A DNA stretch of 64,000 bases from Bacillota bacterium (GCA_021847735.1 JAJZQD010000001.1:1-64000), one strand, 5' to 3'. Counted from the stretch's first letter, positions 11,531 through 32,424 are shown. Numbers and translations: made by a program. The notes: generated from the letters alone by a model not told the origin.

Positions 11531-11776
11531 TTATCCCCCTCCCAGCGGAGGAAATACTGCAATCTCGTCCCCGTCTTTTACTACATATGTTAAGGGTTTA
11601 AACAAGCCGTTAACCAGTACGATTTTGGCCAATTGCACAGATATACCTATATGGTTTAAAAACTCTTTCAGATTCATCGCATGTTTCAACATGAGTCTAA
11701 AATCGTTTTTCCCGTAGCATTCTAACCCTTCGTTTTCACAATGAAGTCCGGCAAACAACCTAACTGTTATCTTCAC
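11531..11776 (-). CDS. MoaD/ThiS family sulfur carrier, ending in GGG
   Basis: The 81-residue protein has the beta-grasp pattern of MoaD: MKITVRLFAGL at the start, LKEFLNHIGI in the middle and DGDEIAVFPPLGGG at the C-terminus. The terminal glycines are the site where an E1-like enzyme makes the thiocarboxylate in molybdopterin or tungstopterin synthesis. It follows mftE by 11 bp. With an AOR gene in the same operon, supplying the tungstopterin cofactor is the obvious guess. No MoaE or MoeB partner is in the window. Confidence 0.85.
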   Translation of the reverse strand: MKITVRLFAGLHCENEGLECYGKNDFRLMLKHAMNLKEFLNHIGISVQLAKIVLVNGLFKPLTYVVKDGDEIAVFPPLGGG

Positions 11777-11787
11777 TTAGGCCCACC

Positions 11788-12597
11788 TCACCAGTTTTTA
11801 GATACCCGCTTGACGGCCAAATCCTCGTTTTGCGAGTCTAATTCATGTGCCAGGTAATTGTTCAAAGACAATTCTATAGTACCCAGAAAAGACCTGCCTT
11901 TTTTAATGGACGCCCGGCCGGGGTCGCCCCAAACACCGTTTGAGCCTTTGATCAGGTCTCTGAAGACCTTCTCGTTTAGTTCCTGGTCATTTAATGATGA
12001 CAGGTCAGGATAATTTCTTATGTCTCTGAGTTTTTTCACCATACTGGGAAAAATGCATGAGATTAACGAGGTCTCATACTCGTTAGCATGAAACCCCCAC
12101 TCAAGGCTGCTGAGCATCATTTTTCCTCTTTCAGAAAGCTTGTCCCAATATGAAATTACTGACAGGAACACATCCTGTCCAACCCTCTGCCTTACTTTTT
12201 CTTTCACCGAACCTAAATACGGCACATTACCACCATGACCGTTAAGCACCAGAATTTTATTAAACCCCGCTGCCCGCAAAGAAACAACAATATCAGTTAT
12301 CAAATTGCACAGAGTATCAGGAGCCACCGTAACTGTTCCGGCAAAATCCATATGTTCATCAGAGATGCCGAACCAGACCGGAGGGAGCGCCACGCCGCCC
12401 AGTTTCCTGGCCAGGCGGCGGCTTACTTCCATACAGATAAAGGTATCTGTCCCCAGGGGTGCATGCGGGCCGTGCTGTTCGAACGAACCAACGGGAATGA
12501 TGCCAAAACTGTTATCTTTTTGAATATAACGTTGAACTTCGGGACTACTCCAAGTCTCCAACTGCAGAGACTTCTCTGAACGTTTCCTGTATGTCAT
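11788..12597 (-). CDS. mftE: Creatininase-family peptidase, mycofactocin MftE
   Basis: The protein (about 270 residues) has the creatininase signature: GSFEQHGPHAPLGTDT near residue 35, SDEHMDFAGT, LNGHGGN near 115, and a conserved H-A-N-E-Y-E-T segment. These carry the metal ligands. In the mycofactocin pathway MftE cuts the modified C-terminal Val-Tyr dipeptide from MftA. The creatininase family also has other roles, so the name rests on the mft genes in the same operon. The start is uncertain: an ATG at 12597 overlaps larB by 53 bp, and a TTG near 12558 would reduce the overlap. Confidence 0.82.
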   Translation of the reverse strand: MTYRKRSEKSLQLETWSSPEVQRYIQKDNSFGIIPVGSFEQHGPHAPLGTDTFICMEVSRRLARKLGGVALPPVWFGISDEHMDFAGTVTVAPDTLCNLITDIVVSLRAAGFNKILVLNGHGGNVPYLGSVKEKVRQRVGQDVFLSVISYWDKLSERGKMMLSSLEWGFHANEYETSLISCIFPSMVKKLRDIRNYPDLSSLNDQELNEKVFRDLIKGSNGVWGDPGRASIKKGRSFLGTIELSLNNYLAHELDSQNEDLAVKRVSKNW

Positions 12598-13417
12598 TGT
12601 CTTCCGCTCCCACAGCAATTTTATTAATCAGACCCGCGATATAACCTCCGCCAAAACCGTTGTCTATATTAACCACACTGACGTTAGAAGAGCAACTGTT
12701 GAGCATACTTAAGAGTGCGGCCACCCCGCCAAAACTAGCCCCGTAACCGACACTGGTCGGGACAGCGATTACCGGCTTGTCCACCATACCACCCACTACA
12801 CTGGCCAGGGCCCCTTCCATACCTGCCGTAACAACAATGGCATTGGCCCGGTACAACATGTGGCGCTGGCTTAAAAACCGGTGTAAACCTGCCACACCTA
12901 CATCGTAAAGTCTCTCAACTTTGTTACCCATCATTTCGCAGGTGATACATGCTTCCTCTGCCACCGTCAGGTCGGCTGTCCCGGCGCTGATCACCAGTAC
13001 ATTGCCCCGTGAATACTGAGGCCCCCGGCGAACCGAAATGATCCTGGCCAAAGCATGGTAAACGGCTTCGGGCAGAACTTTTACAACTTCATCGTAGACC
13101 TCTTGGCAAGCCCTGGTAGCAAGGATATTTGCCTGGCTGGTGGCTGCCAGCTTTTCGGTGATGGCTACTACCTGTTCGGTTGTCTTCCCCTGACAAAACA
13201 CAACTTCCGGGAACCCCTGGCGCAAATGTCTGTGATGATCCACCTTAGCGAAACCCATGTCTTCATATGGCAAAAACTTAAATTCTCCAAGGGCATCGTC
13301 AACGCTTATTTCACCGTGGCGAACCATTTCAAAAAGCTTTTTTATCTTCTTTTCCCCGAAGCAGGATACGTCTTTATGCTCGTCATTTCCACCCGTGTTA
13401 TTGACAGTACCGCTCAT
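12545..13417 (-). CDS. larB: Nickel-pincer cofactor biosynthesis protein LarB
   Basis: The 290-residue protein matches LarB, a homologue of AIR carboxylase (PurE-like) in its C-terminal half. LarB carboxylates nicotinic acid adenine dinucleotide and splits the product to start the nickel-pincer nucleotide. Visible are the N-terminal region with VDHHRHLRQGFPEVVFCQGK near 58-77 and the PurE-like core ISAGTADLTVAEEA, DVGVAGLHR, TAGMEGALASVVGG and TSVGYGASFGG. It lies between the MoaD-like gene at 13441 and mftE. larE is in the same operon and larC in the next one upstream; larA is absent from the window. Confidence 0.93.
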   Translation of the reverse strand: MSGTVNNTGGNDEHKDVSCFGEKKIKKLFEMVRHGEISVDDALGEFKFLPYEDMGFAKVDHHRHLRQGFPEVVFCQGKTTEQVVAITEKLAATSQANILATRACQEVYDEVVKVLPEAVYHALARIISVRRGPQYSRGNVLVISAGTADLTVAEEACITCEMMGNKVERLYDVGVAGLHRFLSQRHMLYRANAIVVTAGMEGALASVVGGMVDKPVIAVPTSVGYGASFGGVAALLSMLNSCSSNVSVVNIDNGFGGGYIAGLINKIAVGAEDNDIQETFREVSAVGDLE

Positions 13418-13440
13418 TTGCTGACCCCCCTAAAGTTTGT

Positions 13441-13716
13441 TTAGTCGTTATACTTAACGAAATACTGCCTGTATAAAACCGACATCTCAATAGGAAAAAT
13501 AGCCAAACGATCACCGTGGTGTAACTTTCTATTGGCCGTGGAATACTGGTAATTCAAAAAAATGTGAGCAACATCGTCTGGTGCAATATCTAACCTCTCC
13601 ATGACCGAAGCGATGGTATCCCCCTCGTTAATTTCCATTTCCAGGAAACATTCCTTGCCTACAGCTGACCCAGCCACTTTATCACGAAACTTTCCGTAAA
13701 GAAACACCGTAATCAA
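13441..13716 (-). CDS. MoaD/ThiS-like protein without the C-terminal Gly-Gly
   Basis: The 91-residue protein has a MoaD-like beta-grasp layout: ITVFLYGKFRDKV at the start, a central EGDTIASVMERLDI and HHGDRLAIFPI near 75. It then continues with about 14 residues (EMSVLYRQYFVKYND) and lacks the terminal Gly-Gly needed for sulfur transfer. AOR genes of this class are often followed by such MoaD-like genes. Either the protein acts without thiocarboxylation or the tail is removed. A 168-bp gap with a 9-bp hairpin separates it from the AOR gene; larB follows 23 bp later. Confidence 0.7.
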   Translation of the reverse strand: MITVFLYGKFRDKVAGSAVGKECFLEMEINEGDTIASVMERLDIAPDDVAHIFLNYQYSTANRKLHHGDRLAIFPIEMSVLYRQYFVKYND

Positions 13717-13876: not shown

Positions 13877-13884
13877 CTTTGTTT

Positions 13885-15621
13885 TCAGGAAGAGTGTACA
13901 CTGTCCAGGACTTCGTCTGGTACGTCGTAAACATGGTTGTGAGGGGGCAACTTTTCGTAGTACATGAATTCGGGCAGGCGGTCATCCGCTTTGGTAAAAC
14001 CTGCCGCCTCATTGAATTTTCGCTCCAGGGTAAGCCATTCGGCGCCTAAACAGTTAAAGTCTTCCGCGGTATAACCGGTGCCCAGCACCCCGTTGACAGT
14101 ATCCAACATGCCCTGAAATGCGTCGGGTAAATCAAGCACCGCAAAAGCTATAAAGAGGCAGTATCCGGTCGAGTCGATAAATATGGTAGCTGTCTGGAAA
14201 CCCCGGGCCAGGGCGCCCTTTTCGGCTGCTGCCAGGGGATCAGCCTTGCCGCCGACGCTGAGAATCTCAGTAGCAATAGTATAGCCCGCGGTATGGTCGG
14301 CACCCATAGTTGCAGTTGCAAAGGTGACACCTATCCCTTTGACTGCCCTTGGTTCATAAGCCGGTATAGACTGCCCCTTCACCACCGGTACCCGAACCAC
14401 GCCAAAAGCCTTACCGGTAAAGGCGGTACCGTTGCCGATGATTCTTCCGATAGGGCTTCCCTTTCCGACTTCATTGAGAAGTTCGATAGCCTTCTTGCCA
14501 TCGCCAAAGGGGATAATGCCTGCCTCCATGGCTACGCCAATGGTGCCGCCGGAGTCAATAGTATCAAGTCCGACATCGTTGCAAATGCGGTTCAGTTCGG
14601 CGATATCGTCAAGGTTATCTATTTCGCAGTTGGCTCCAAAAGCCCACGCGGTTTCATATTCCAAAGGGGATACATGATATGTCCCATCCGGATGGTTAAC
14701 CACGTTGGAGCATTTGATCACACACCCGTGGTGGCAAGCGTGTCCCACTTTGCCACCTCTCGTTTTAGCCCATTCATTAATGACCTCGCCACCGGTTTTG
14801 CTGGCGCCTTCAAATTTTCCTGCACTGAAGTTACGGGTAGGCAGTCCCCCGGCTTCGTTAAGAATATTTACCAACACGGCAGTCCCGTAGGTAGGCAGGG
14901 CTTGGCTGGTTACAGCATGGTCCGCTAAGCCCTTGGCCAGCTTCTGCTGTCCTTGTTTAAACAGGTCGGGGTTGGCGATGGCCACATCTCCAGGACCTTT
15001 TTGTTCAACAATAATAGCCTTTAACCCTTTGGACCCCATTACAGCGCCAAGACCGCCCCTGCCCGCATAACGGCCGGGGCCGTTTTCCGGGTCGTTACAA
15101 GACACCCCTGCATTAAGCATCTTCATCTCACCGGCAGGGCCGATGCCAATAATACCTATATCTTCACCGTATTTTTGCCAAATCAGTTTATTTGTTTCAT
15201 ACATTCCCTTGCCTGTCAGTTGCCCGGCTTCTTCCAGAACTGCCGTGCCTTGAGCCAGTTTTAAAATATAAAATTTACCTTTTTCTTTCTGCAGTCCTTC
15301 CACGATAATGGCATGAATGCCCAGGCGGGCAATCTTCTGAGCCGGGATTCCACCGGCATTTGCCTCCTTAATTGTGCCGGTGAGCGGGCTCTTCGCGCCT
15401 ACCGAAAGACGACCGGAACTGGGGGCGGTCGTCCCGGTTACAATGCCGGGAGCAAAAACCAGTTTGTTGTGGGGACCGAGAGGGTGACAGGTTGGCTTGA
15501 CTTCAGCGGCCACTATCGTGGAAGTCAAAGCTCGCCCACCCAACACACGATACTTCTCAGAAACATCCTCCTTTTTGACGGAAAGGTCACTCATGTTCAC
15601 CCGTAGAATAAATTTACCCAT
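13885..15621 (-). CDS. Tungsten-containing aldehyde ferredoxin oxidoreductase
   Basis: The 578-residue protein matches the AOR family, which oxidises aldehydes to acids (or the reverse) with a bis-tungstopterin and a 4Fe-4S cluster, using ferredoxin. The N-terminal domain has YRVLGGRALTSTI, APSSGRLSVGAKSPLTG and GGIPAQKIARLGI. The cluster cysteines appear in CHHGCVIKC near residue 300, and a late cysteine in STGYCLFIAF near 510. It lies between mftF and the MoaD-like gene in the mycofactocin operon. I infer that it consumes aldehydes made by the mycofactocin-linked dehydrogenases. Confidence 0.93.
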   Translation of the reverse strand: MGKFILRVNMSDLSVKKEDVSEKYRVLGGRALTSTIVAAEVKPTCHPLGPHNKLVFAPGIVTGTTAPSSGRLSVGAKSPLTGTIKEANAGGIPAQKIARLGIHAIIVEGLQKEKGKFYILKLAQGTAVLEEAGQLTGKGMYETNKLIWQKYGEDIGIIGIGPAGEMKMLNAGVSCNDPENGPGRYAGRGGLGAVMGSKGLKAIIVEQKGPGDVAIANPDLFKQGQQKLAKGLADHAVTSQALPTYGTAVLVNILNEAGGLPTRNFSAGKFEGASKTGGEVINEWAKTRGGKVGHACHHGCVIKCSNVVNHPDGTYHVSPLEYETAWAFGANCEIDNLDDIAELNRICNDVGLDTIDSGGTIGVAMEAGIIPFGDGKKAIELLNEVGKGSPIGRIIGNGTAFTGKAFGVVRVPVVKGQSIPAYEPRAVKGIGVTFATATMGADHTAGYTIATEILSVGGKADPLAAAEKGALARGFQTATIFIDSTGYCLFIAFAVLDLPDAFQGMLDTVNGVLGTGYTAEDFNCLGAEWLTLERKFNEAAGFTKADDRLPEFMYYEKLPPHNHVYDVPDEVLDSVHSS

Positions 15622-15643: not shown

Positions 15644-17140
15644 TTAGTTATTTATTTGGTTTTTTGCTGCCAATCTTTGGAGTAAATTAGCATCCGCTCT
15701 GATAAAATCCATAGCCATGGGACGCCAGTTATGTTCACTGAGGCAGCCACTAATTACACCGGCCTGGTAAAAAGCGTTTTCCAGGAAATGATAGAAACAG
15801 AAGCGGGCAACTCGCATAGCGGGCTTTTTCAGTTTATAATCAACTATCCCGGGTAGGGCGTGTAGTCCAAACAGTAACAAGGCTAACCCGGGGGACACGA
15901 AAAGGGCAAGAAAGGTAAGAATGCCGGAATAGTAGTGGGAATAATGCTGGCCGTAAATGTAAAAAGCCGCGCCCTGGGACCTGGCTGTGGCAAGAAAGAC
16001 CTGCCGGAATTTTGGTTTACACTCCCCGGCCTTGATACCGTGGAGTTTACTTAAAGACTGCCATACCAGGTTAGCTAATACCAAGGCCACACAGGCTGCC
16101 AGGCCCGCACCGGCACCGGCTGTCAGAGATATCAGGGCTGTTATTCCAAAAACAGCATGATTCCCGGGAAAAAAAACCAGCCTCCGTTTCTCTGTGGGAT
16201 ATCTAACCTGCAGCTTGGCCTCAGATTGTCCGTAATTGTATCTTCTTTTTAAAAACGGGGACAATGTTGAGCGATGGTGATGAAAAACCAATCCCTCAGG
16301 CACATAGTAAATATGCTCACCTTTCTCAAGTATCTGCCAGCACAGGTCAACATCTTCCCCCACCCTCATCAAGGGGTCAAAGGCGCCGGCGGCCAGCACA
16401 GACCTTTTCCTGACCAGCAAATTACAGGTTGGCAGGTAAGACACAGAACTTCCTTTGCGGACTTTGCGCAGGGTGTTCCCCATCAACAGGGGCGACTGCA
16501 CCTGTTCGTACTTTTCCAGCGGTCTTATTAAACCGGCTGACTCTACCCGCCCCCCGGCAGCCGCCACATCAGTGTACTGAAAACATGGCGCCAGACTTCT
16601 TAACCAGTTTTTTTCTGCCAGGCAGTCATCATCCAAAAAAGCGATAATCTCTCCCTTAGCCTGCCTCACTGCTTCGTTTCTGGCCGCTCCGGGGCCGCCG
16701 TTACGGGCTAGCCGGATTAATCTGACCGACCGGCTGTAACGCCCCAAATCCACGGGGACCGGTGATGCATCATCAACTACGATTATCTCGTATTTTTCTC
16801 TGGGATAATCCAGCGCGATCAGGGACTCAATACACTTATCCAACATTTGCGGACGGTTGTAAGTGGGTATTATAATACTGACCCACGGTAGCCGATCATC
16901 GGAAAGCGTTGGAAAAGACCTTGTCAAAATACCCTGGTCCTCCAAGCCGGCAGCAAATGCCGCCAGCTTTTCGTCCCAGGTGAATTTAGTGTCACCCGGT
17001 CCACACAGTAGTTGAATGGCTTTGGCCCCGGCCCTGCTCAACCTGATAATTCTATACGGGTATCGAACAGTTAACGTCCCACCCCCATTTCCCAAGCTTT
17101 CCCGGAAGGTAACACCATCTGCAAGCAAATACATGCTCAT
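15644..17140 (-). CDS. mftF: Mycofactocin glycosyltransferase MftF
   Basis: The 498-residue protein has an N-terminal region of about 100 residues before a GT2 domain: SIIIPTYNRPQMLDKC near 108, VDDASPVPVD, FLDDDCLAEKNWL (the DDD metal site) and VGEDVDLCWQI. Two to three hydrophobic segments follow between residues 325 and 440, indicating membrane attachment. MftF adds glucose units to mycofactocin in mycobacteria, and the N-terminal extension before the GT2 domain is typical. It overlaps the ETF beta stop by 4 bp, so translation is coupled. Confidence 0.88.
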   Translation of the reverse strand: MSMYLLADGVTFRESLGNGGGTLTVRYPYRIIRLSRAGAKAIQLLCGPGDTKFTWDEKLAAFAAGLEDQGILTRSFPTLSDDRLPWVSIIIPTYNRPQMLDKCIESLIALDYPREKYEIIVVDDASPVPVDLGRYSRSVRLIRLARNGGPGAARNEAVRQAKGEIIAFLDDDCLAEKNWLRSLAPCFQYTDVAAAGGRVESAGLIRPLEKYEQVQSPLLMGNTLRKVRKGSSVSYLPTCNLLVRKRSVLAAGAFDPLMRVGEDVDLCWQILEKGEHIYYVPEGLVFHHHRSTLSPFLKRRYNYGQSEAKLQVRYPTEKRRLVFFPGNHAVFGITALISLTAGAGAGLAACVALVLANLVWQSLSKLHGIKAGECKPKFRQVFLATARSQGAAFYIYGQHYSHYYSGILTFLALFVSPGLALLLFGLHALPGIVDYKLKKPAMRVARFCFYHFLENAFYQAGVISGCLSEHNWRPMAMDFIRADANLLQRLAAKNQINN

Positions 17141-18027
17141 AACATCACTACAGGTTCACTGCGGAAAAATTCAATTATTCTGTCTGCCAGTTGTTCCGGC
17201 GTGCCTGTAATTACCTCCCCTTGTTTTCTGACTACGCCTCCGGCCAGAATTTTTCTCAAACGCTGTTCGGCCGGCAGCCGGTGGTCAGGTGTGACGGGTC
17301 GTGCAGTGATAGGTCTGGAAACCCGGGTCATGACATTGTTAACCTTAGCGCCCCGGCTTCCGGCCCGTTCCGGGGACAGGCCCAAACATGATAGACCTTT
17401 ACACGGCATCGGCTGTGTAAAAGCCGCTATTAAACCGGGGAGGTCAGCGTCACAGGACGGCACTCCACCTGCTTCTTCTATCGCAATCAACGCCGGCAGC
17501 TTTACCATTACCCGTTCCCGTTTCCCCTTCTCCAGTTTCCTGACTACAACAGCCATTCCATGTTCCACTTTTTCAATCCGGGCAACCCCGGGCACGTAGG
17601 ACAGGCCCGCTGCCGAAGCGGCCACACCGGGTAATAAACTGTTAATCTGGTCCAAGCACCCGTCACCACAGAGAATCAGGTCCGGCTTCGACCTGGTCAA
17701 GACCGCCGCAACAGCCTTGCCCCGGCCCAACTGGTCCGCCTCAACCAGGGACCGGTCCCAAATCCTCAAAGCCCGCTCTGCCCCTGCCGCCAGACACCAA
17801 CGCAGGGATTCCTCTGCCTCTTCGCCCCCCAGGGCAATTGCCACTATCTGGCTCCGGTTCATTTGGTTCCTAAGATTTAAAGCACATTCAAGGGCAAACC
17901 AATCGGCAGGATTTACAATGCTTATCATTCCTTCCGGCAGTGGTTTTTCGCCATAGACATCCGGCGGCAGGGGCACCCGGCTATCCACCACGGACCTGAT
18001 TAAGACTGCAATGTTCAGCTTTCTCAA
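17137..18027 (-). CDS. fixA: Electron transfer flavoprotein beta subunit (FixA-like)
   Basis: The protein matches ETF beta/FixA: NIAVLIRSVVDSRVPL at the start, NPADWFALECALNLR near 45 and ALGGEEAEESLRWCLAAGAERAL near 70-92, then a long C-terminal region. Together with ETF alpha it carries FAD (and possibly AMP or a second FAD) and moves electrons from dehydrogenases to FixC. An upstream extension of the frame would overlap fixX, so I place the start at TTG 18027, after a GGAAAG site; CTG at 18018 is an alternative with better spacing. It belongs to a fixB-fixC-fixX-fixA block inside the mycofactocin operon. Confidence 0.83.
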   Translation of the reverse strand: MRKLNIAVLIRSVVDSRVPLPPDVYGEKPLPEGMISIVNPADWFALECALNLRNQMNRSQIVAIALGGEEAEESLRWCLAAGAERALRIWDRSLVEADQLGRGKAVAAVLTRSKPDLILCGDGCLDQINSLLPGVAASAAGLSYVPGVARIEKVEHGMAVVVRKLEKGKRERVMVKLPALIAIEEAGGVPSCDADLPGLIAAFTQPMPCKGLSCLGLSPERAGSRGAKVNNVMTRVSRPITARPVTPDHRLPAEQRLRKILAGGVVRKQGEVITGTPEQLADRIIEFFRSEPVVML

Positions 18028-18047
18028 CCTTCTTTCCGGGAATTTTA

Positions 18048-18323
18048 TTATGCGAACCGATAATTGACGCCACATCCCCCCTTGGGGTAATTCCACTTTA
18101 AGGCGCCCAGGTCACAGATCACGTAACAGGTACCGCATTCGAGACAGCCTTCGTAATTAAAGAGCACCCCATTTTCGGCATGGGCTAAGTAACATTGGGC
18201 CGGGCAGGCTGTAAGGCAGGCACGATGCGTGCACCTGCGGCATTTCACATAATCCACTTCGATATGTGCTTGCCTGTCCAACCTGTAACGGCTGAATTTT
18301 AAGCGTTGGGAAATATCTACCAT
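18048..18323 (-). CDS. fixX: Ferredoxin-like protein FixX
   Basis: The 91-residue protein has one full cluster set, CLECGTCYVICDLGAL near 60-75, and an earlier degenerate set, CRRCTHRACLTACPAQCY near 28-45. This is the layout of FixX ferredoxins, which pair with FixC in ETF:quinone or bifurcating complexes. It overlaps the fixC stop by 7 bp. Gene order and overlap indicate that it forms a complex with FixC. Confidence 0.88.
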   Translation of the reverse strand: MVDISQRLKFSRYRLDRQAHIEVDYVKCRRCTHRACLTACPAQCYLAHAENGVLFNYEGCLECGTCYVICDLGALKWNYPKGGCGVNYRFA

Positions 18324-19621
18324 AGCATTGCCCTCCCAAATTGGTACCCGTCCTTAGTCATCTGCCAGAGACCCATATCCTCACCCAACAGGCGTTTAAC
18401 CATGCCGGCCAGTTTGGGATGGCCGGTGCCGTCTACCATAAACCAGTTTTCCAAGGTCCGGCACACAAAGGATGGGTAAACTTCGTACAGTCTTTCATTC
18501 AGCAGCATGGGAATCGCGGTCTTAAACCTGTCGATGTCCTGAAGCACAAAACTTTCTTTAAGCCTGACCTCATATTCCGCCATGGCTGCCTGGTCAAAAC
18601 TGCCCTTTTCAAAGGCCTGGATGGCTGTTTCGGCGGCTGCCTTACCGGCAGCAATGGCAAAGTTTACGCCTTCCAGGAAAACCCCACCGGCCAGAACAAG
18701 GCCGGCCGCATCCCCAGCAACCATCATTCCCCCGGTAAACAGCTGGGGAACCATGTTGATACCCGCTTCCGGGATCAGGTGTGCCGAATATTCAAGGAAC
18801 CGGCCGCCCTCTAACAGAGGAGCGACGGCAGGGTGGCGCTTGAATTGATCTAACGCATCATAAATAGTGGCTTTTCTCGCTTTCAGCGAATGGGCCTGAG
18901 CTACTACCCCTAAAGACAGGCAATCCCTGTTAGTGTAAATAAAAGCTCCTCCGTGCAGGCCGCCGCCCATTCGCCCCAAGAATTCATTGGACATCCCTTC
19001 GTCCCCGGTCAAACCGAGACGTTCCTCTAATGCGCCGGCAGGTAATTGGACCACCTCTTTAACTCCCAAAGAGAACTGGTTAGGGGTAAACTCCCTGCGC
19101 AGTCCTGCTTTTTTTGCCAGTAGTGACACAGCCCCGTCAGCAGCAATCACAACCTTGGCCCTTAGTTCACCTTGCGGCCGGCGGGCCATCACGCCCACTA
19201 CCTGGCTGCCCTCCCGGATAATGTCGTCTGCCACGGTCTGTGTCAGCAGCACCGCGCCGGCTTTCACAGCTTCCTGGGCATACCACCTGTCAAAAGAGGT
19301 TCTCTGCACCACAAACCCGTTGTAAGGTGGTTTTTTGAAGGCCGCACTGTGAAAATCAAGGGAGACTGCAGAATCTTCAGCCAGCATGGTAATCATTTTG
19401 CGACTGATGAACCTTTCAAAAGGCGCTTTGGTCCAGTACTCCGGAATGATGTCATGAAGTACCCTACCGAAAACCGCCCCGCCAAACATGTTTTTGGAAC
19501 CCGGAAATTCACCCCGCTCCAGGAGGGTCACTTTTAAGCCTTTACGGGCTAACAGCAGGGCGGCGGTTATCCCTGCCGGACCTGCACCGACCACAATCAC
19601 GTCAAAATTGTTGCTGTTCAC
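18317..19621 (-). CDS. fixC: FAD-dependent oxidoreductase FixC (ETF-quinone oxidoreductase-like)
   Basis: The 434-residue protein begins with an FAD-binding Rossmann motif, VVGAGPAGITAALLLARKG at 11-29, and has GDAAGLVLAGGVFLEGVN near 300, typical of the FixC / ETF-QO / geranylgeranyl reductase group. It should accept electrons from ETF and pass them, with FixX, to quinone or ferredoxin. It overlaps fixB by 4 bp. In mycobacteria the GMC enzyme MftG links mycofactocin to respiration; no such gene is here, so FixC/ETF is the best candidate for that role. This is inference. Confidence 0.88.
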   Translation of the reverse strand: MNSNNFDVIVVGAGPAGITAALLLARKGLKVTLLERGEFPGSKNMFGGAVFGRVLHDIIPEYWTKAPFERFISRKMITMLAEDSAVSLDFHSAAFKKPPYNGFVVQRTSFDRWYAQEAVKAGAVLLTQTVADDIIREGSQVVGVMARRPQGELRAKVVIAADGAVSLLAKKAGLRREFTPNQFSLGVKEVVQLPAGALEERLGLTGDEGMSNEFLGRMGGGLHGGAFIYTNRDCLSLGVVAQAHSLKARKATIYDALDQFKRHPAVAPLLEGGRFLEYSAHLIPEAGINMVPQLFTGGMMVAGDAAGLVLAGGVFLEGVNFAIAAGKAAAETAIQAFEKGSFDQAAMAEYEVRLKESFVLQDIDRFKTAIPMLLNERLYEVYPSFVCRTLENWFMVDGTGHPKLAGMVKRLLGEDMGLWQMTKDGYQFGRAMLW

Positions 19622-25546: not shown

Positions 25547-25850
25547 GAACTAAATTCAACTCCTCAAGAAGGTACAGGATTTTTAACACAAATTCCTCCG
25601 CATCGCGCCCACGCAAGGAAGCTTGACTGATTTTTGCCGCTATTTCCCGCACTGTTCCTCTTTCGGCCAGTTCCAGGAGATTAATAACCAGTTGGGAGTT
25701 AAAAAAATGCAGACTGTCATCCACGCGCCGGTAAATCACCCCACCGGATTGTTCATAACGGTATTTTATTCCCGGTTGTACCGTGTAACGGCTGTCCAAG
25801 TTCAAAGCCTTATCCCCATTTCTGTCAATTCTTTTTAGGTGGCTGACCAT
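25473..25850 (-). CDS. mftB: Mycofactocin precursor chaperone MftB (PqqD-like)
   Basis: The 125-residue protein has the winged-helix PqqD-type peptide-recognition layout: YTVQPGIKYRYEQSGGVIYR near residue 22, then FFNSQLVINLLELAERGTV and an EEFVLKILYLLEELNLV C-terminal helix. MftB binds the MftA leader and delivers it to MftC. The predicted C-terminus overlaps mftC by 74 bp in another frame, an unusually long overlap; the mftC start could lie later, but its N-terminal residues look native. It also overlaps the SDR stop by 16 bp. Confidence 0.9.
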   Translation of the reverse strand: MVSHLKRIDRNGDKALNLDSRYTVQPGIKYRYEQSGGVIYRRVDDSLHFFNSQLVINLLELAERGTVREIAAKISQASLRGRDAEEFVLKILYLLEELNLVHELEPSNNQAAGPDLPDLADNRQM

Positions 25851-26638
25851 CCGCTGTCTACCATTAAATTGTGGCCGGTGACATATTGGGAATCATCGGA
25901 TGCCAGCCACAAAGCAGCTGCAGCGGTAGCTTCCGGCGGGATAATTTTACTGATCAGATGCCCGGAACTGAGTTCATCGGCAGCTTCTGCATGGTCTACG
26001 CCCATGATTTCCGCCAGCCCCCCTACCATCCCGGTGTCACAGGTACCCGGGCCAATGCAGTTAACCCTGATTTTATAGGGCGCCAGTTCCTGAGCCAGTG
26101 TTTTGGTCAGCGCAATGACACCCCATTTGGCGCAGCTGTAATGAACGGCAAAAGGCAACCCTTTTACACCGGCCACAGAGGCGTAACTGATGATATTTCC
26201 GCTCTGCCTGCCGATCATATGCGGGAGAACGGCTTTACATCCCAGCCAGACTCCCTTTAGGTTAATATCCAGCATGACATCCCACTCTTCTTCCGGGAGT
26301 TCATGAGCGGCGCCAAGTCCGGCGATACCGGCATCATTAACCATTATATCAATCTTGCCCAGAGCGCCGATAGTCTCATCAACAGCAGTCTTGATTTCCG
26401 CATAATTACGCACATCACCGTAAAAAGCCAGGGCCTTCCTGCCCAGAGCTGTTATTTCCGCTAAAGTTTTTTCCATATCTTCCTTAGTCGACAGATCATA
26501 AAGAACCCCATCCAGGTTATGACAGATGTCCAAGCATGCTATATCCGCACCTTCCCTGGCCATCGCCAGGGCCGCGGCCCGTCCTTGGCCCCTGGCCGCC
26601 CCGGTTATAAAGGCCACTTTTCCGTCAAGCTTTCCCAT
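25835..26638 (-). CDS. Mycofactocin-type SDR family oxidoreductase
   Basis: The 267-residue protein is a short-chain dehydrogenase with the cofactor motif TGAARGQG at 12-19, NDAGIAG near 101, and catalytic S154, Y167 and K171 (YSCAK). Between the first strand-helix unit and the D-V motif it has a DICHNLDGVLYDLSTKEDM insert near 37-55, the kind of insertion used to recognise SDRs with non-exchangeable NAD that depend on mycofactocin. Its place directly after mftA supports that. It should oxidise an alcohol with mycofactocin re-oxidising the bound NADH. Confidence 0.88.
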   Translation of the reverse strand: MGKLDGKVAFITGAARGQGRAAALAMAREGADIACLDICHNLDGVLYDLSTKEDMEKTLAEITALGRKALAFYGDVRNYAEIKTAVDETIGALGKIDIMVNDAGIAGLGAAHELPEEEWDVMLDINLKGVWLGCKAVLPHMIGRQSGNIISYASVAGVKGLPFAVHYSCAKWGVIALTKTLAQELAPYKIRVNCIGPGTCDTGMVGGLAEIMGVDHAEAADELSSGHLISKIIPPEATAAAALWLASDDSQYVTGHNLMVDSGWSAT

Positions 26639-26657: not shown

Positions 26658-26768
26658 TTAATAAACGCCGCAGATCCCGTCAATAGCCAGGGTTTCAATT
26701 ACTACATCCTCCAGTATCATTGGTTCATCAAAACTGATTTCATGCTCCGTATTAATTTGCTGTTCCAT
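26658..26768 (-). CDS. mftA: Mycofactocin precursor peptide MftA
   Basis: A 36-residue frame from ATG 26768 to TAA ends in IDGICGVY, the diagnostic C-terminus of mycofactocin precursors. The last Val-Tyr is the part that MftC decarboxylates and cross-links. The leader is acidic (SFDEPMILEDVVIE). It is too short for ordinary gene finders. The start lies inside the 3' end of larE, with a 17-bp overlap, and an AGAGG site about 7 bases upstream that is within larE. The SDR gene begins 19 bp after the stop. Confidence 0.96.
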   Translation of the reverse strand: MEQQINTEHEISFDEPMILEDVVIETLAIDGICGVY

Positions 26769-27603
26769 ATTTATAACCTCTTTCATCATTGTTTTTTGTT
26801 TCCAGGCGCAGCATCTCATTGGCACTGCCCATACGGTATCCGGCCAAGTCCAGCGTTACATAAGTGAATCCGATACTTTTCATATAGGCTACCACTTTTT
26901 CCGCAAGTTCGATAATTCTGGGCATACTGTCCCTATCCACCTCAATCCGCAAGACGTTTTCATGATACCTGGCACGAACCTGCGGAAAGCTGAGGGTTTT
27001 CAGATATTTCTCGGCTTTTTCCACCTTTGTCAAACCTTCAATGGTGATTCTTGTACCGTACTGGAAACGGGAAGAAAGGCAGGGAGATGAAGGTTTGTCC
27101 CATGTAGGCAGGCCCAGTTGTCTGGATTTCATACGAATATCTTCTTTTGTCAGACCGGCCTCCAGCAGTGGGCTGCGCACTTTCAGAGCCTGTCCGGCTT
27201 CCATACCGGGCCTGTAGTCGCCAGCGTCATCAGCATTGCATCCATCCACTAAGTAAGGGATGTTTCTCTCCCTGGCTACCTGCCAGAGCTTGCCAAACAG
27301 CTCACTTTTACAGTGGAAACACCGGTTTTTGGAATTACTGACAAACTCGTCCTTGTGAAACTCCTCCGTATTCACGGTAAGAAACGGGACCCCCATATCT
27401 TCGGCCATTCGGGTGGCCTCAACTATTTGATCGCAGGGTACGGTTTCAGAAATGCCCATTACACCAATCGCTTTTGGTCCAAGGACATCCCAGGCCACTT
27501 TTAGGAGAAAAGTACTATCGACACCTCCCGAATAAGCTACCACGACATTCCCCATCTCGTGCAGGATTTCCCTTAATCGGGCATATTTTGAAACGAGTTC
27601 CAT
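26752..27603 (-). CDS. larE: ATP-dependent sacrificial sulfur transferase LarE
   Basis: The 283-residue protein has the PP-loop SGGVDS at 25-30 and C175 in PSSPCLSSR, the position of the sacrificial cysteine whose sulfur is given to the nickel-pincer precursor. RCFHCKSELF near 94-103 adds two further cysteines. LarE turns the two carboxylates of the LarB product into thiocarboxylates. Its end overlaps mftA by 17 bp, so the two genes are translationally tied. larB is 13 kb downstream in the same gene run. Confidence 0.95.
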   Translation of the reverse strand: MELVSKYARLREILHEMGNVVVAYSGGVDSTFLLKVAWDVLGPKAIGVMGISETVPCDQIVEATRMAEDMGVPFLTVNTEEFHKDEFVSNSKNRCFHCKSELFGKLWQVARERNIPYLVDGCNADDAGDYRPGMEAGQALKVRSPLLEAGLTKEDIRMKSRQLGLPTWDKPSSPCLSSRFQYGTRITIEGLTKVEKAEKYLKTLSFPQVRARYHENVLRIEVDRDSMPRIIELAEKVVAYMKSIGFTYVTLDLAGYRMGSANEMLRLETKNNDERGYKYGTAN

Positions 27604-27618: not shown

Positions 27619-27936
27619 TCAGGTCATTCTGATTACCCAATTGGAAGTTGTGGTGATAAGGTTATTGGCAGGTCCCTCTAAAGCCTCGAATCTTTCCTTG
27701 GCTGCACCGGCATTGCCATCGAGTGCCGCAACCAGCTCGTCTATCAGTTTATCGGTAACGGTGGCCATGTCTGTGCCCCCTTGTGTCTTAAGAAAAAATT
27801 TCTTTTGAATCATTTTCAAACCCTCGATTATCTGATCCATTGAACCTTTACTCTCCGGCAGGTTTTCGGAAAATTTACCGTAACTTTTGTCCAGCTTTTC
27901 GATCATACCTGCAACTACGTCTCTACCGTCTGACAT
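27619..27936 (-). CDS. Hypothetical protein, about 105 residues
   Basis: I do not recognise a family. The start at ATG 27936 is chosen because GGAGGG stands eight bases upstream; the longer frame from 27981 would overlap the previous gene and lacks such a site. The product is mostly helical and acidic, with no membrane segment or cysteine motif (SDGRDVVAGMIEKLDKSYGK at the start). It is packed between the next hypothetical gene and larE (15-bp gap), so it is part of the operon and may act with the Lar or Mft proteins. Confidence 0.7.
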   Translation of the reverse strand: MSDGRDVVAGMIEKLDKSYGKFSENLPESKGSMDQIIEGLKMIQKKFFLKTQGGTDMATVTDKLIDELVAALDGNAGAAKERFEALEGPANNLITTTSNWVIRMT

Positions 27937-27965
27937 CGTTTGATCCCTCCATAAAGAATGTTTTC

Positions 27966-28352
27966 TTAATGACATTTGCAAGCCTTACTACTCAGATTAA
28001 GGTTGCTTTCCTGTCCCAGGTAACGCTTAAGAATCTTGATAGACATATCCAGCTGCTTGATGTCTTCCCGCAGGGAATCTAACCCATAGTAGCGTATTTG
28101 GTAATCGACATCCTCGGCAATGGAGTAGATTACCTGGAAAATCTCCAGGCAAGGGTAAATAGCCTCATTGTGCTGGAAATCGTCCCAGTTATCAAAAATA
28201 ATTCTTTTAGCGTGGACGTCTTCCAACTCCTGCACAAATTCGGCTTGATTTATCTGAAGCGTAGTGAATTTCCAGATAAGTTCCCTCGCTTGAATGGCTG
28301 CTTCCATACCTTCCTTCACTAAGTCGTCTATACCGGTGTTCCGGCTTTTCAT
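27966..28352 (-). CDS. Hypothetical protein ending in CKCH
   Basis: The 128-residue protein has no family I recognise. It looks fully helical and acidic and carries a C-terminal CKCH tail that could bind a metal. It begins one base after the Mrp ATPase gene stops. Given the nickel-related neighbours, a metal-handling role is possible, but this is only inference. Confidence 0.7.
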   Translation of the reverse strand: MKSRNTGIDDLVKEGMEAAIQARELIWKFTTLQINQAEFVQELEDVHAKRIIFDNWDDFQHNEAIYPCLEIFQVIYSIAEDVDYQIRYYGLDSLREDIKQLDMSIKILKRYLGQESNLNLSSKACKCH

Positions 28353-28353
28353 G

Positions 28354-29364
28354 CTAGTCTTCCCCCTTACCGGCGTTTGCCACTTTGGACACCAGGTAAT
28401 CCGCGATTTTACTGATTTCCCGCGCTACCAGGGAATCAGGGTGGTTTATGACCACCGGAATACCCGCATCTGAACTTTCATTTACTTCAACCATGAACGG
28501 AATACTGCCAAGGAAATCCACTTCCATCATTTTAGCCAGGCGTTCAGCAGACCGCTGGCCAAATAGTTTGATGGGCTTTTCACAGTGCGGGCAGCAAAGA
28601 ATACTCATATTCTCCAGTACGCCAAGTATTGGAATGTTCATCTCCTTGGCGGTGTTGATGGCCTTGGTGCAAACAATGGTGGAAACGTCCTGGGGAGTGC
28701 TGACTACTATCATCCCGTCTAAGCCCGGGATGGAACTCATGACGGTGAGGACCTCATCCCCGGTCCCGGGCGGCAGGTCAACCAGCAGGTAATCCAATTC
28801 ACCCCAGTTTATCGTGCTTAAGAACTGCCGGATTATTCTCATCTTGAAAGGGCCCCGCCACATAACCGGGCTCTCCCGGCTGGGCCAAATCGAGTCAACG
28901 GAAACCATGTCGACACCATATGGTGTTCTTATCGGTTCGAAACGTAAATTATGGGTGTCCCCGCCGAACTGCTCTTCCTGATGTCCATGGCCGTGATGGT
29001 GATCGTGGTCGTGATGGTGATCATGGCCGCAGCAGTTGTCGTCATGATGATGGTGCCCCTCATGATTCGCTTGACTATTATGTCCCCCAGGCATTCGGTG
29101 AGAGGCCACATCCAGCTTTCCGGCAGCGCCCAGTATTTTGGGCACTGCCGGCCCGTGCACATCGGCATCGAGAATAGCGACTTTACACCCTTGTTGGGCT
29201 AAAGTCACTGCCAAATTGACAGTGGCAGTGGTTTTACCCACTCCGCCTTTTCCGCTGAATACAGCAATTTTGTGCTTCACCCGGCTCAATGACTGGGCAA
29301 TAGGACTGTGCTGAGCCTGCCATTGTTCCCGGGCCTGCTGTTTTAAGTCATAAAAACTATCCAT
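28354..29364 (-). CDS. Mrp/NBP35 family P-loop ATPase with a histidine-rich insert
   Basis: The 336-residue protein is a Mrp/ApbC-type iron-sulfur carrier. It has the deviant Walker A GKGGVGKTT at 38-46, DADVHGPAVPKILG near 72, LLVDLPPGTGDE near 194 and CCPHC in the C-terminal third. Between residues 92 and 130 a His/Asp-rich insert replaces the usual loop; it has about 20 histidines and two adjacent cysteines. Such inserts bind nickel or other divalent ions in other metallochaperones. It may load iron-sulfur clusters into the DUF362 proteins or store nickel for the lar pathway. Confidence 0.9.
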   Translation of the reverse strand: MDSFYDLKQQAREQWQAQHSPIAQSLSRVKHKIAVFSGKGGVGKTTATVNLAVTLAQQGCKVAILDADVHGPAVPKILGAAGKLDVASHRMPGGHNSQANHEGHHHHDDNCCGHDHHHDHDHHHGHGHQEEQFGGDTHNLRFEPIRTPYGVDMVSVDSIWPSRESPVMWRGPFKMRIIRQFLSTINWGELDYLLVDLPPGTGDEVLTVMSSIPGLDGMIVVSTPQDVSTIVCTKAINTAKEMNIPILGVLENMSILCCPHCEKPIKLFGQRSAERLAKMMEVDFLGSIPFMVEVNESSDAGIPVVINHPDSLVAREISKIADYLVSKVANAGKGED

Positions 29365-29369: not shown

Positions 29370-30509
29370 TTAGCCCCCTATCATTTCCAGGTGATATTTG
29401 CGCAACCCCAACCCAAAGTCTTCGGCATACTGTAAAGGATATGAGGTGTCAACCCCGTGGATTTCTTCAAATTTCAGGCTGTCGGGCGCCAGAGTGCTAT
29501 ATCCCTGTGACTTTTGGAATACCAGTCCGGGGGCTTTATTAATCAGGTCTAAGGAAGCCTGATCAATCGCCACAGGATCACGAGAAGCCAGGATACCCAG
29601 ATCAGGGGTGATGCTCTGGTCGTTTACCGTGTAGTAATCTGGATACTTGCCCACATCCAGAAGGAAGTTCAGGTAGAACAGTTTTCCCATGGTAGCGACG
29701 TTCACCGCTGTAGCGGCTTCCACAACCCGTTTCTGGAATCTGGGATAAGACTCTTTATTAACCTTCAGAGCGCCCTGGGCACAAAAACCGAGGCAATAAT
29801 GATTACATCCTTTGCAACGGCCATGATCTACTTTTACCACTCCATTATTGGCAGTGATAGCCTGGGTCGGGCATAGCGCTACACAATCCTCGCAATTAGT
29901 GCACCTGGCTGTGTCAACTACCGGTTTCAGCGGGTCAAATATCCGCCATTTCCCTTTTTGCGAGGAGCAACCGACACCTTTGTTAAACAGAGCGCCGTTT
30001 AAACCGAAAAACGGGTGGCCGGTAACATGGGAAACGACAACCATAGCGGCAACCTCAACAACACCCCTGGCAACTTCGATACCGCCCAGCTCGTCACCGT
30101 CAATCGGCAGCAGTTCATCTTCCGCGCCTGTATACCCGTCCGCCGGAAGAATGTCTTTACCCAGTAATGCACCGGGATAACCGTTGACAGAAGTTGTATA
30201 AAACCAGTCACTGGGCCCCCTCAGGGTGTTGCCAATCATGCCCACAGTGTCCATAATAACAGGGATACCCTTCAGCTCCGTTATCTTTTCCACGATGGCC
30301 CTTACCATGACAGGGCGTAAATATCTGATATTACCAAGCTCACCGATATTTATTTTGACGCCCACATAGTCGCCGGGTTTAAAAAGGTCTTTAAGACCGC
30401 TGATATCCAGGAGTCCATCAAGGGCTCTGACCATTCCGCCGCTCATACAGTAGCTCCCCGAGTCCACTCCCCAAACTATACTGCTGTTGGATTCCGGCAA
30501 AAGTACCAC
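29370..30509 (-). CDS. DUF362 iron-sulfur protein
   Basis: The 379-residue protein has a DUF362 domain in the first 190 residues and at its end, split by a two-cluster ferredoxin module: CTNCEDCVALCPTQAI near 196 and CKGCNHYCLGFCAQGAL near 226. Function of DUF362 proteins is not established; they are common in anaerobes near redox operons. It has a paralogue 1.1 kb upstream. It ends 5 bp before the Mrp-type ATPase gene, which could insert its clusters. Confidence 0.85.
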   Translation of the reverse strand: MVLLPESNSSIVWGVDSGSYCMSGGMVRALDGLLDISGLKDLFKPGDYVGVKINIGELGNIRYLRPVMVRAIVEKITELKGIPVIMDTVGMIGNTLRGPSDWFYTTSVNGYPGALLGKDILPADGYTGAEDELLPIDGDELGGIEVARGVVEVAAMVVVSHVTGHPFFGLNGALFNKGVGCSSQKGKWRIFDPLKPVVDTARCTNCEDCVALCPTQAITANNGVVKVDHGRCKGCNHYCLGFCAQGALKVNKESYPRFQKRVVEAATAVNVATMGKLFYLNFLLDVGKYPDYYTVNDQSITPDLGILASRDPVAIDQASLDLINKAPGLVFQKSQGYSTLAPDSLKFEEIHGVDTSYPLQYAEDFGLGLRKYHLEMIGG

Positions 30510-30565: not shown

Positions 30566-30835
30566 TTAAGCAGTCGTAGGGTCAATTATTGTTACGACCT
30601 TTGAAACACTGTTAGCCGGAAAACCCCCTCGTTTTGCGTGTTCACGAACCATTTCTTCGTTGGGAGCGATATAGATACAGTAAATCTTGTCACTGGTAAC
30701 ATAACTTTGCACCCACTGGATTTGCGGCCCAAGCTGGTTTAGGATTCCACAGGACTTCTGTGAAATACCCTGCAGGTCTTGGGGAGTCAGATTTCCAGCA
30801 CCGGGAATTTCTCGTTCAATTACGTATTTTGGCAT
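30566..30835 (-). CDS. DUF4242 (SCO4226-type nickel-binding) protein
   Basis: The 89-residue protein matches DUF4242: PKYVIEREIPGAGNLTPQDL at the start, then WVQSYVTSDKIYCIYIAPNE and EHAKRGGFPANSV. The characterised member, SCO4226 of Streptomyces, is a nickel-binding ferredoxin-like-fold protein. That family link, together with lar genes on both sides, suggests a nickel-handling role; metal binding here is inferred. It lies between the two DUF362 genes. Confidence 0.85.
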   Translation of the reverse strand: MPKYVIEREIPGAGNLTPQDLQGISQKSCGILNQLGPQIQWVQSYVTSDKIYCIYIAPNEEMVREHAKRGGFPANSVSKVVTIIDPTTA

Positions 30836-30880
30836 TTGGGATCCTCCTTACTTTTATTTGGCACTGCGTCCTGTTAGTTG

Positions 30881-30907
30881 GGACGCTCCCCGCTGACGGG
30901 GAGCGTC
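30881..30907. other. Strong intergenic hairpin between DUF362 and DUF4242 genes
   Basis: GACGCTCCCCG and CGGGGAGCGTC form an 11-bp perfect stem with a CTGA/TCAG loop. No T-run follows on the minus strand, so it looks like an mRNA processing or stability element. Confidence 0.55.
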
Positions 30908-30938
30908 AAATCCCTATACAACGTGACAAGAAACAATC

Positions 30939-32300
30939 TTACTTTTTCCCCAGGTCTGGACCGTAATCTTTGTAAATGTCGATATTAAACGGCTTCCGAT
31001 TATATGGTTGAATCTCCTTGACATAATCGTGCTTCTTCCAGATTTCACGCAACAGAAGCGCAGTCGGCTCCTGGCGAATCTGCCACTTGGCGATATGCTC
31101 CCTGGTCATAGGAGGCTCGTAGGTGATTAATTCGTAATCCATTGTTCCCATTCCAAGTTTTACGCCGGCATTCAATTGATACCTGGGCGGTACGCTCTGG
31201 GTAACTTTGAACTTGTCATCACCCGGCTTAACTCCGGCGTCTTCCAGCATGTTGTTGGCTGCGCCCGGGGGAATTGGGGCGGCATCGATTTTATCTAATA
31301 TTGCTGTGTCCATTGCCACGATGTCCTTGGATGCAAACACTCCGATGTCAGGGCTTACAGGAAGGGTTGCCCACGGGATGCAGTCACAGTTCGGGTCAGT
31401 ATCAATTGCATAGGCCATGTGGCCTACTTTGCCTTCCCCAAAGGTCTTCAACACAGCCTTGGCTGCATCAGACATACCAATCTGGGCATATGCGAAATAC
31501 TCCGGCCGGAATCCCTGAGATGTGTGTCCGGTAAAAATACAGGTTACCTGGCAGCCATAGCACAACTGGCATTTATCGGTATTCCTGCGGAACCCTTTCT
31601 CATCAATTGTGATAGCCCCGGCATGGCAACCATCCATGCACTGCTCGTGGAACTCACATTTTAAACCGGCACAGGCGCTGGGATCGCTTAAAGGCCAGCC
31701 GATAGCATCGCCGGGCTCGCCCCAGTGAGCCAAGTGCTCAACAAATTTTCCACGCTTGGATTGTCCCCCGATACCAATGTTCTTAATGGCCCCGCCGTAG
31801 CTGGTGATGGGATGCCCTTTAGCGTGTGCCAGGTTAATCATGGCATCAGCCATGGCAATCCCAGAAGCAACATAAGCCTCTTTCAAGACAATACCTTCCG
31901 GTAAGTCTACCCTTACATCATCGCAACCCGACCAACCGTCGGCTATTACCAGCGGGCAACCGAGTGCATCAGGCGTAAAGCCGTGCCGGTAAGCGGTTTC
32001 TAACTCCAGGGTGGCAGTGATCCTGGAGTTGAAAGCGTGATAGGGTAAGGTGGTGGTGTCAGTCACAAACGGGCGGCCGCCCACAGCTTTAACTTCTTCC
32101 ACGATAGCGGCCACCAATTCAGGTCTCAGGCACCTAGTCCGGTTATATTCGCCTACGTGAATCTTCACTGCTACCGAGTCACCTTTTGCTATACACTTGT
32201 CAAGCCCCGCTTCGTAGAATAGATCCTTTGCCTTACAGACCAGACTTTCTGTCCAGTTAGTGGCATTTGCATCAGAAAACCAAACCTTAGATTTTGCCAT
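30939..32300 (-). CDS. DUF362 iron-sulfur protein, first gene of the sigma-54 operon
   Basis: The protein (about 453 residues) has DUF362 regions flanking a cysteine-rich segment: CAGLKCEFHEQCMDGCHAGA near 210 and CQLCYGCQVTCIFTG near 245. It has KIHVGEYNRTRCLRPELV near 45-62, matching its paralogue at 29370. I choose ATG 32300 over the upstream GTG because AGGAGGG stands seven bases before it. It is the first gene after the sigma-54 promoter, so it is probably tied to the main function of the operon. Its biochemical role is unknown. Confidence 0.85.
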   Translation of the reverse strand: MAKSKVWFSDANATNWTESLVCKAKDLFYEAGLDKCIAKGDSVAVKIHVGEYNRTRCLRPELVAAIVEEVKAVGGRPFVTDTTTLPYHAFNSRITATLELETAYRHGFTPDALGCPLVIADGWSGCDDVRVDLPEGIVLKEAYVASGIAMADAMINLAHAKGHPITSYGGAIKNIGIGGQSKRGKFVEHLAHWGEPGDAIGWPLSDPSACAGLKCEFHEQCMDGCHAGAITIDEKGFRRNTDKCQLCYGCQVTCIFTGHTSQGFRPEYFAYAQIGMSDAAKAVLKTFGEGKVGHMAYAIDTDPNCDCIPWATLPVSPDIGVFASKDIVAMDTAILDKIDAAPIPPGAANNMLEDAGVKPGDDKFKVTQSVPPRYQLNAGVKLGMGTMDYELITYEPPMTREHIAKWQIRQEPTALLLREIWKKHDYVKEIQPYNRKPFNIDIYKDYGPDLGKK

Positions 32301-32424
32301 TTTTACCCTCCTCTTTTCCACAAAATACGTCTAAATGTCGACCTCTTGCATGTAACCTCCTAGACACCCCTCCCTCAGTAAGAAATAGCGCCATATACCG
32401 TTTGACACCTGTCTTTAATATTAT

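Follow-up and report, generated by a model that had tools for sequence, protein, structure and literature searches.

The locus described here raises the question of how mycofactocin can be completed and re-oxidized where neither MftD nor MftG is found. About 25% of genomes with MftC lack MftG, and a takeover by other enzymes has been left open (PMC11778925). The locus occupies positions 11531-32321 of a 64,000-nucleotide stretch of DNA from a Bacillota bacterium (GCA_021847735.1 JAJZQD010000001.1:1-64000; the whole stretch is called the window), and combines mycofactocin (mft) genes with two flavoproteins of the FadH/old yellow enzyme (OYE) family, an electron transfer flavoprotein (ETF), FixC and FixX. 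From sequence comparisons, we consider it fairly likely that this is a sigma-54-controlled mycofactocin operon for alcohol oxidation, in which OYE dehydrogenases and an ETF/FixCX relay would replace MftD and MftG and an aldehyde:ferredoxin oxidoreductase (AOR) would act on the aldehyde.

Read 5' to 3', the minus strand carries larC, an iron alcohol dehydrogenase gene, a histidine kinase gene, an NtrC-type regulator gene and then a 264-base gap, after which come DUF362a, a SCO4226-like gene, DUF362b, an Mrp-type ATPase gene, two unknowns, larE, mftA, a short-chain dehydrogenase/reductase (SDR) gene, mftB and mftC. The order continues with OYE-A, OYE-B, etfA, fixC, fixX, etfB, mftF, AOR, a moaD-like gene, larB, mftE and another moaD-like gene. 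Within the stretch that begins with DUF362a and closes with the second of these moaD-like genes, no gap exceeds about 170 bases and overlaps are frequent (for example, larE/mftA and larB/mftE). This layout suggests an operon of 20-odd genes that joins mycofactocin synthesis to a flavoprotein relay in place of two standard enzymes, with nickel-cofactor genes interspersed. The initial annotation had placed mftA, the SDR, mftB, mftC, both FadH/OYE genes, etfA, fixC, fixX, etfB, mftF, AOR and mftE in a tight run on one strand here, and we find the same, on the minus strand. It omitted LarE and LarB within the run, as well as LarC, the iron alcohol dehydrogenase and the sigma-54 two-component pair just upstream. 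Its description of the make-up as unusual is in part incorrect: the cassette is already known as annotation, since NCBIfam has names for mycofactocin-associated OYE and ETF proteins ('mycofactocin system FadH/OYE family oxidoreductase 1/2' and 'mycofactocin-associated ETF alpha/beta').

The mycofactocin genes were assigned by comparing scores with the curated NCBIfam cut-offs, with Pfam used alongside:

26658..26768, minus strand: MftA precursor peptide of 36 amino acids, C-terminus IDGICGVY (NCBIfam MftA 35.9, cut-off 25; variant MftA 41.5, cut-off 30)
25835..26638, minus strand: mycofactocin-coupled SDR dehydrogenase (TIGR03971 300.0 bits, cut-off 300)
25473..25850, minus strand: MftB chaperone, divergent (TIGR03967 23.7 bits, cut-off 33)
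24527..25546, minus strand: MftC radical SAM maturase (TIGR03962 371.6 bits, cut-off 265)
15644..17140, minus strand: MftF glycosyltransferase (TIGR03965 360.6 bits, cut-off 280)
11788..12618, minus strand: MftE creatininase-family peptidase, divergent, first ATG near 12597 (Pfam creatininase 197.7 bits; TIGR03964 109.8, cut-off 172)

MftA (with its C-terminal VY core), MftC and MftF all exceed their curated cut-offs. We regard MftB, MftE, EtfA and EtfB as divergent members because their scores fall under the cut-offs although the family is recognizable. As the initial annotation had reported, MftD and MftG are missing from the window: tblastn searches with four authentic MftD proteins and two authentic MftG proteins gave no match. 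Nor did the 62%-complete source genome yield an mftD/mftG pair elsewhere, with 20-25 bits at best on the MftD model (TIGR03966, cut-off 470.85), on which true MftD proteins score 697-715 bits, and zero matches to MftG (TIGR03970).

The proposed replacement consists of the following products:

22597..24546, minus strand: OYE-A, FadH/OYE flavoprotein lacking the GxGxxG of the NAD(P)H site (TIGR03997 805.3 bits, cut-off 793.15; alignment)
20625..22613, minus strand: OYE-B, FadH/OYE flavoprotein lacking the same GxGxxG, with a His at the histamine dehydrogenase His position (TIGR03997 959.7 bits; alignment)
19618..20607, minus strand: EtfA (FixB) (mft_etfA 139 bits, its best match; cut-off 240)
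18317..19621, minus strand: FixC, ETF:quinone oxidoreductase type (NCBIfam FixC family; best PDB match 7koe_C, 315.9 bits)
18048..18323, minus strand: FixX ferredoxin-like protein (NCBIfam FixX 53 bits)
17137..18096, minus strand: EtfB (FixA) lacking the DGDTxQVG of the aligned bifurcating ETFs (mft_etfB 94 bits, cut-off 200; best PDB match 1o94)

OYE-A and OYE-B are members of the family that includes dienoyl-CoA reductase, histamine dehydrogenase and trimethylamine dehydrogenase; both pass the TIGR03997 cut-off and score as type 2. The second GxGxxG is absent from all mft OYEs aligned, and at dinucleotide motif 2 (GCGGIG in dienoyl-CoA reductase) they have an Asp-containing stretch like that of histamine dehydrogenase. 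Likewise, the four cysteines of the 4Fe-4S cluster are retained in nearly all of them, as in histamine dehydrogenase. In the trimethylamine/histamine dehydrogenase family, the Cys of an N-terminal PHC stretch carries covalent flavin mononucleotide (FMN); this Cys is absent in OYE-B, where PAHLTN aligns with VPHCNG of 3k30. The mft_etfA and mft_etfB models are the top matches of the window EtfA and EtfB, though both score under cut-off, and the closest solved ETF beta is entry 1o94, which was deposited together with trimethylamine dehydrogenase. At the nucleotide site EtfB reads CGDGCLDQINSLLPG, compared with GRQAIDGDTAQVG in 6fah and GKQAVDGDTGQVG in 7koe; none of the aligned mft-cassette EtfB sequences has the DGDTxQVG stretch of these two bifurcating ETFs.

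Further cassette loci came from a search of the whole collection with OYE-B. The order mftC-OYE-A-OYE-B-etfA-fixC-fixX-etfB-(mftF) is kept in Bacillota, Chloroflexi, Dormibacteraeota and Streptomyces, so the co-occurrence of FixABCX with mft genes that the initial annotation called for in relatives is found. Among the mft loci that this search returned, four in Bacillota (L008-L010 and L016) and one in Dormibacteraeota (L023) have the cassette, and two more in Bacillota (L007 and L019) lie on short contigs that cover it only in part. In Thermogemmatispora the cassette is present and mftC lies outside the 10-kb flanks yet elsewhere in the genome. MftC occurs in 11 of 11 tested genomes from the search that have both OYEs, or OYE-B plus ETF genes (the four Thermogemmatispora genomes represent one lineage), and in none of four that carry just a distant OYE relative. 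The phylum background is 3 genomes with mftC out of 399, and class- and family-wide mftC searches added one genome (G006, UBA2595). Neither MftD nor MftG scored above cut-off in any of the 18 genomes having an OYE-B relative; in Aneurinibacillus danicus and Desulfosporosinus sp. BRH_c37, MftD matches reach about 32 bits at most. Since the window genome is just 62% complete, these relatives weigh more on the absence of MftD and MftG.

Plasmids gave a further comparison. Ten plasmid records carry mftC: six, all from Streptomyces, have the OYE/ETF cassette, four have mftD (from Thermomicrobium, M. chubuense, Streptomyces NBC_00080 and Tsukamurella), and none has both (Fisher p 0.005; the independence of the records is limited because two of the six cassette plasmids appear identical). 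On plasmids the cassette occupies the usual place of mftD, adjoining mftC. Because the cassette co-occurs with MftC, MftD and MftG are absent, and the two arrangements exclude each other on plasmids, it appears that the OYE/ETF cassette takes the place of MftD and MftG. The proposal of the initial annotation that ETF/FixC provides the electron exit and that the OYEs stand in for MftD and MftG thus gains support across phyla. Its view of the locus as an anaerobic version of mycofactocin-linked oxidation is rejected because aerobes carry the same cassette: it is found in Aneurinibacillus, in Thermogemmatispora and, on plasmids, in Streptomyces, all three of them aerobes. In three Streptomyces plasmid loci (L111, L125 and L126) the cassette-type mft genes adjoin polyketide synthase genes, a hint that the cassette may take part in natural-product redox steps.

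Set against the observed gene content, its conservation, the co-occurrence with MftC, the absence of MftD and MftG, and the degenerate NAD(P)H site, we infer the electron path, the assignment of OYEs to steps and the substrate as follows. Alcohol oxidation by the SDR and the iron alcohol dehydrogenase would reduce mycofactocin. The OYE-type flavoproteins would work as dehydrogenases rather than as NAD(P)H-driven reductases, and their substrate is presumably mycofactocin or a precursor. One OYE would re-oxidize mycofactocinol, the role of MftG; one OYE, or the same one, would carry out the amine oxidation done elsewhere by MftD, for which the amine oxidation of histamine dehydrogenase can serve as a precedent. 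Electrons would pass from the OYE FMN to the 4Fe-4S cluster, to EtfAB, to FixC/FixX and on to menaquinone, and the AOR would convert the aldehyde to the acid.

Several points weigh against this mechanism. The OYE reaction is not readable from sequence because the FadH Tyr is missing from both active sites, and the amine-dehydrogenase His from that of OYE-A as well. The division of labor between the OYEs is uncertain because one Dehalococcoidia mft locus (L015), with ETF/FixCX genes and three consecutive iron alcohol dehydrogenase genes, yielded OYE-B as its sole OYE. Lactate-oxidase-like MftD relatives scoring 250-270 bits occur in some cassette genomes (Thermogemmatispora and Dormibacteraeota) and could carry out the MftD step there. 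Finally, the 62% completeness of the window genome limits the absence of MftD and MftG in it.

The solved near relatives of the OYEs include the reductases 6qkg (NCR) and 1ps9 (dienoyl-CoA reductase), which would fit a different role: reduction of an enone or other substrate in a catabolic pathway that does no more than use mycofactocin, with the MftD step performed by an unrecognized enzyme or non-enzymatically. We judge this unlikely, given that the cassette accompanies MftC across phyla and lifestyles, even where the two are not neighbors, and sits at mftD's place by mftC. Less likely again is an electron-bifurcating complex of the FixABCX/EtfABCX type that drives low-potential ferredoxin or NADH chemistry with mycofactocin as one partner among several, which would suit the FixC, FixX and ETF gene set and its resemblance to the EtfABCX complex 7koe (FixC, 315.9 bits), but the EtfBs of mft cassettes lack DGDTxQVG and feed OYEs without the NAD(P)H-site GxGxxG, neither of which rules out a second flavin adenine dinucleotide.

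Returning to the proposed alcohol-oxidizing operon, the alcohol and aldehyde enzymes and the small genes of the locus are as follows:

35733..36890, minus strand: iron-containing alcohol dehydrogenase with TSNPKDHEVH (Pfam Fe-ADH; sequence)
13885..15621, minus strand: AOR family enzyme (Pfam AFOR_N 206 bits, AFOR_C 266 bits)
13441..13716, minus strand: MoaD/ThiS-like protein adjoining the AOR (Pfam ThiS 24.5 bits)
11531..11776, minus strand: second MoaD/ThiS-like protein (Pfam ThiS 35.6 bits)
27966..28352, minus strand: unknown protein of 128 amino acids (no NCBIfam or Pfam family; 56% identity to genome G410)
27619..27981, minus strand: unknown protein of 120 amino acids (no NCBIfam or Pfam family; 55% identity to G410)

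The TSNPKDHEVH of the alcohol dehydrogenase matches the hotspot TSNPKDYEVH described for mycofactocin-associated enzymes of this type (Haft 2011, PMC3023750). In Desulfosporosinus sp. BRH_c37 and in SKS3.bin89, too, the mft genes are followed by an AOR, and removal of the aldehyde by the AOR is plausible. The methanol system of D. kuznetsovii (alcohol dehydrogenase plus AOR) was considered as a parallel and set aside, the paper's text being without radical SAM or electron transfer terms.

Three features upstream of the run bear on its control:

34073..35716, minus strand: sensor histidine kinase (NCBIfam AtoS-like; 72% identity in G410, 58% in G400)
32586..34055, minus strand: NtrC-type sigma-54 response regulator (NCBIfam NtrC family, 404 bits)
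32425..32440, minus strand: sigma-54-like -24/-12 promoter TGGCATGATAATTGCA (pattern search; 104 bases upstream of DUF362a, beside the sigma-54 activator gene)

The strict sigma-54 pattern occurs twice in the window against 0.09 expected, a pattern chosen after the sites were seen. Similar elements in front of DUF362a in G400 and in G410 (TGGCGAGATTATTGCT) are for that reason the better support for the promoter. A looser pattern performed at chance level (34 found, 36 expected). The operon is probably one sigma-54 transcript, and by its position the two-component pair would take MftR's place; no TetR-type gene was seen among the scanned locus genes, and MftR was not searched with its own model. 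Between 32322 and 32585, TGTCC/GGACA inverted repeats lie upstream of the promoter in the window and in G410 and are possible binding sites for the NtrC-type regulator. A second sigma-54-like site, TGGCATAATTGTTGCA, is found at 11370-11385 on the minus strand, upstream of an unknown 171-amino-acid gene (10789-11304) that follows the operon. Farther off, at 39967-40722 on the minus strand, a reverse-transcriptase-like/RNase H domain is fused with a cupin domain.

The genes related to the nickel-pincer nucleotide (NPN) pathway, and those that accompany them, are:

36887..38281, minus strand: LarC, NPN-pathway nickel insertion protein (Pfam Ni_insertion 503.7 bits; NCBIfam LarC1 and LarC2 above cut-off)
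26752..27603, minus strand: LarE, NPN-pathway sulfur transferase, 3' end overlapping mftA (NCBIfam 325.8 bits, cut-off 150; groups with the mft-linked LarE of G410)
12545..13417, minus strand: LarB, mft-linked copy, overlapping mftE (NCBIfam LarB 288 bits, cut-off 175; in a clade with the mft-linked LarB of G410 and G400)
30939..32321, minus strand: DUF362a, LarA-clan iron-sulfur protein with LarA-like His/Lys/His (Pfam DUF362 129.5 bits; alignments; family hhalign to LarA)
30566..30835, minus strand: SCO4226-like small protein (Pfam PF14026, 'nickel responsive', 103 bits)
29370..30509, minus strand: DUF362b, second DUF362 protein, with 4Fe-4S sites and without the LarA-type Lys and second His (Pfam; alignment)
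28354..29364, minus strand: Mrp/MinD-type ATPase with the His-rich insert GHHHHDDNCCGHDHHHDHDHHHGHGH (NCBIfam MrpORP/ApbC family; sequence), a possible metal chaperone

Parts of this arrangement recur. In G410 (SKS3.bin89) the order from DUF362a to OYE-B is kept on one contig and that from OYE-B to mftE on another; in G400, mftF-larB-mftE and DUF362a-SCO4226-DUF362b are kept on separate contigs. At one G400 locus (L071, contig C101), a stand-alone larE-larB is followed, about 3.4 kb downstream, by DUF362a, the SCO4226-like gene and DUF362b, with LysM and bactofilin-like genes between. A plausible, if not quite probable, account of the nickel genes is that LarC, LarE and LarB just serve an ordinary LarA-type racemase encoded elsewhere, their position in the mft operon reflecting joint control of the use of alcohols and hydroxy acids; a LarA gene is indeed present in the window genome (contig C29), in G400 and in G401. 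Against this account, the window genome, G400 and G410 each have a second LarE-LarB set that stands alone, the mft-linked LarBs of all three form a clade apart from the stand-alone copies (support 99/100), the mft-linked LarEs of the window and G410 form their own clade (support 100/99), and no LarA was found in G410, an incomplete genome. In the reading that we favor, the Lar/DUF362 part is a lineage-specific addition that supplies a nickel-pincer cofactor, which one of the operon's own proteins may receive.

A candidate for that protein is DUF362a. DUF362 and LarA share a Pfam clan (PMC11770544). In the literature, as far as it was available to us, the nickel-pincer cofactor is described only for racemases and epimerases. 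Comparison of the DUF362 family with LarA by hhalign gave a probability of 81% (E 1.3e-5) with His/Lys/His in register; the three DUF362a sequences alone gave an E of 0.11, which is not significant. In the family profile alignment the conserved DUF362 His, Lys and His fall on LarA residues that we take to be His174, Lys184 and His200. DUF362a could hold the cofactor because of this clan membership and these residues, and may be a nickel-pincer oxidoreductase. The first catalytic His of LarA, His108, has no aligned His in DUF362a, which has DTTT in that stretch, and an AlphaFold2 model of DUF362a built from four sequences had a confidence score (pLDDT) of 31 and was not used for fold search. 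LarB is present in 145 of 182 genomes with DUF362 (odds ratio 7.9; relatives are not independent), and the 37 without it weaken the idea that DUF362 proteins use NPN as a rule. Five species of one genus without LarB keep the His/Lys/His in their DUF362, which would weigh against DUF362a holding NPN.

We give little credence to the further proposal that DUF362a is an NPN oxidoreductase with built-in iron-sulfur clusters acting on mycofactocin itself. Such an activity is conceivable because mycofactocinol, an alpha-hydroxy amide, chemically resembles the alpha-hydroxy acid substrates of LarA. If true, this would make it an NPN-dependent dehydrogenase, a LarA-clan enzyme that sends hydride electrons out via 4Fe-4S clusters, and would join two rare cofactor systems.

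A literature search, mostly outside subscription journals, found no work joining mycofactocin with electron transfer flavoprotein, aldehyde ferredoxin oxidoreductase or lactate racemase, and no account of the role of the cassette or of the Lar/DUF362 extension; one paper contains both mycofactocin and old yellow enzyme, naming mycofactocin a single time. OYE dehydrogenases with ETF and FixCX are a concrete, testable candidate for electron disposal in producers without MftG, and also at MftD's place. With the Lar genes and the LarA-clan DUF362 in view, redox enzymes dependent on the nickel-pincer cofactor also become conceivable.

Compared with the LarA/LarBCE system, the window has LarB, LarE and LarC above cut-offs and DUF362 in LarA's clan, but no LarA in the locus, and DUF362a has extra iron-sulfur sites and lacks LarA His108. 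With the canonical mycobacterial mftABCDEF(G)R cluster it shares MftA, MftC, MftF and the mycofactocin-coupled SDR, with divergent MftB and MftE, under cut-off, at the expected positions and of the expected families; it differs in having the OYE pair, ETF and FixCX where no MftD or MftG is found, a sigma-54 two-component pair at MftR's place, and additional Lar and DUF362 genes. The mft loci of Pelotomaculum thermopropionicum and Desulfotomaculum acetoxidans, also Bacillota, resemble it in their mycofactocin-linked SDR and iron alcohol dehydrogenase with a near-identical TSNPKD motif, whereas the available part of the text that describes them (PMC3023750) names no ETF, OYE or Lar genes. Like trimethylamine and histamine dehydrogenase with ETF (1o94 and 3k30), the window OYEs have an FMN barrel, a 4Fe-4S cluster, a degenerate NAD(P)H site and an ETF partner; unlike them, they have no Cys at the 'HC' near the barrel start, and the active-site Tyr is not conserved. 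Relative to the OYE/ETF cassettes of NCBIfam, the ETF subunits of the window fall under the cut-offs and both OYEs are of type 2. The AOR, Lar and DUF362 genes of the window were not seen in the Streptomyces cassette loci examined. The plasmid of Streptomyces sp. NBC_00564 (L107) nevertheless has the same order as the window, mftA-mftB-mftC-OYE-OYE-etfA-FAD oxidoreductase-ferredoxin-etfB, and Streptomyces strains with the cassette make a test feasible in aerobic laboratory organisms.

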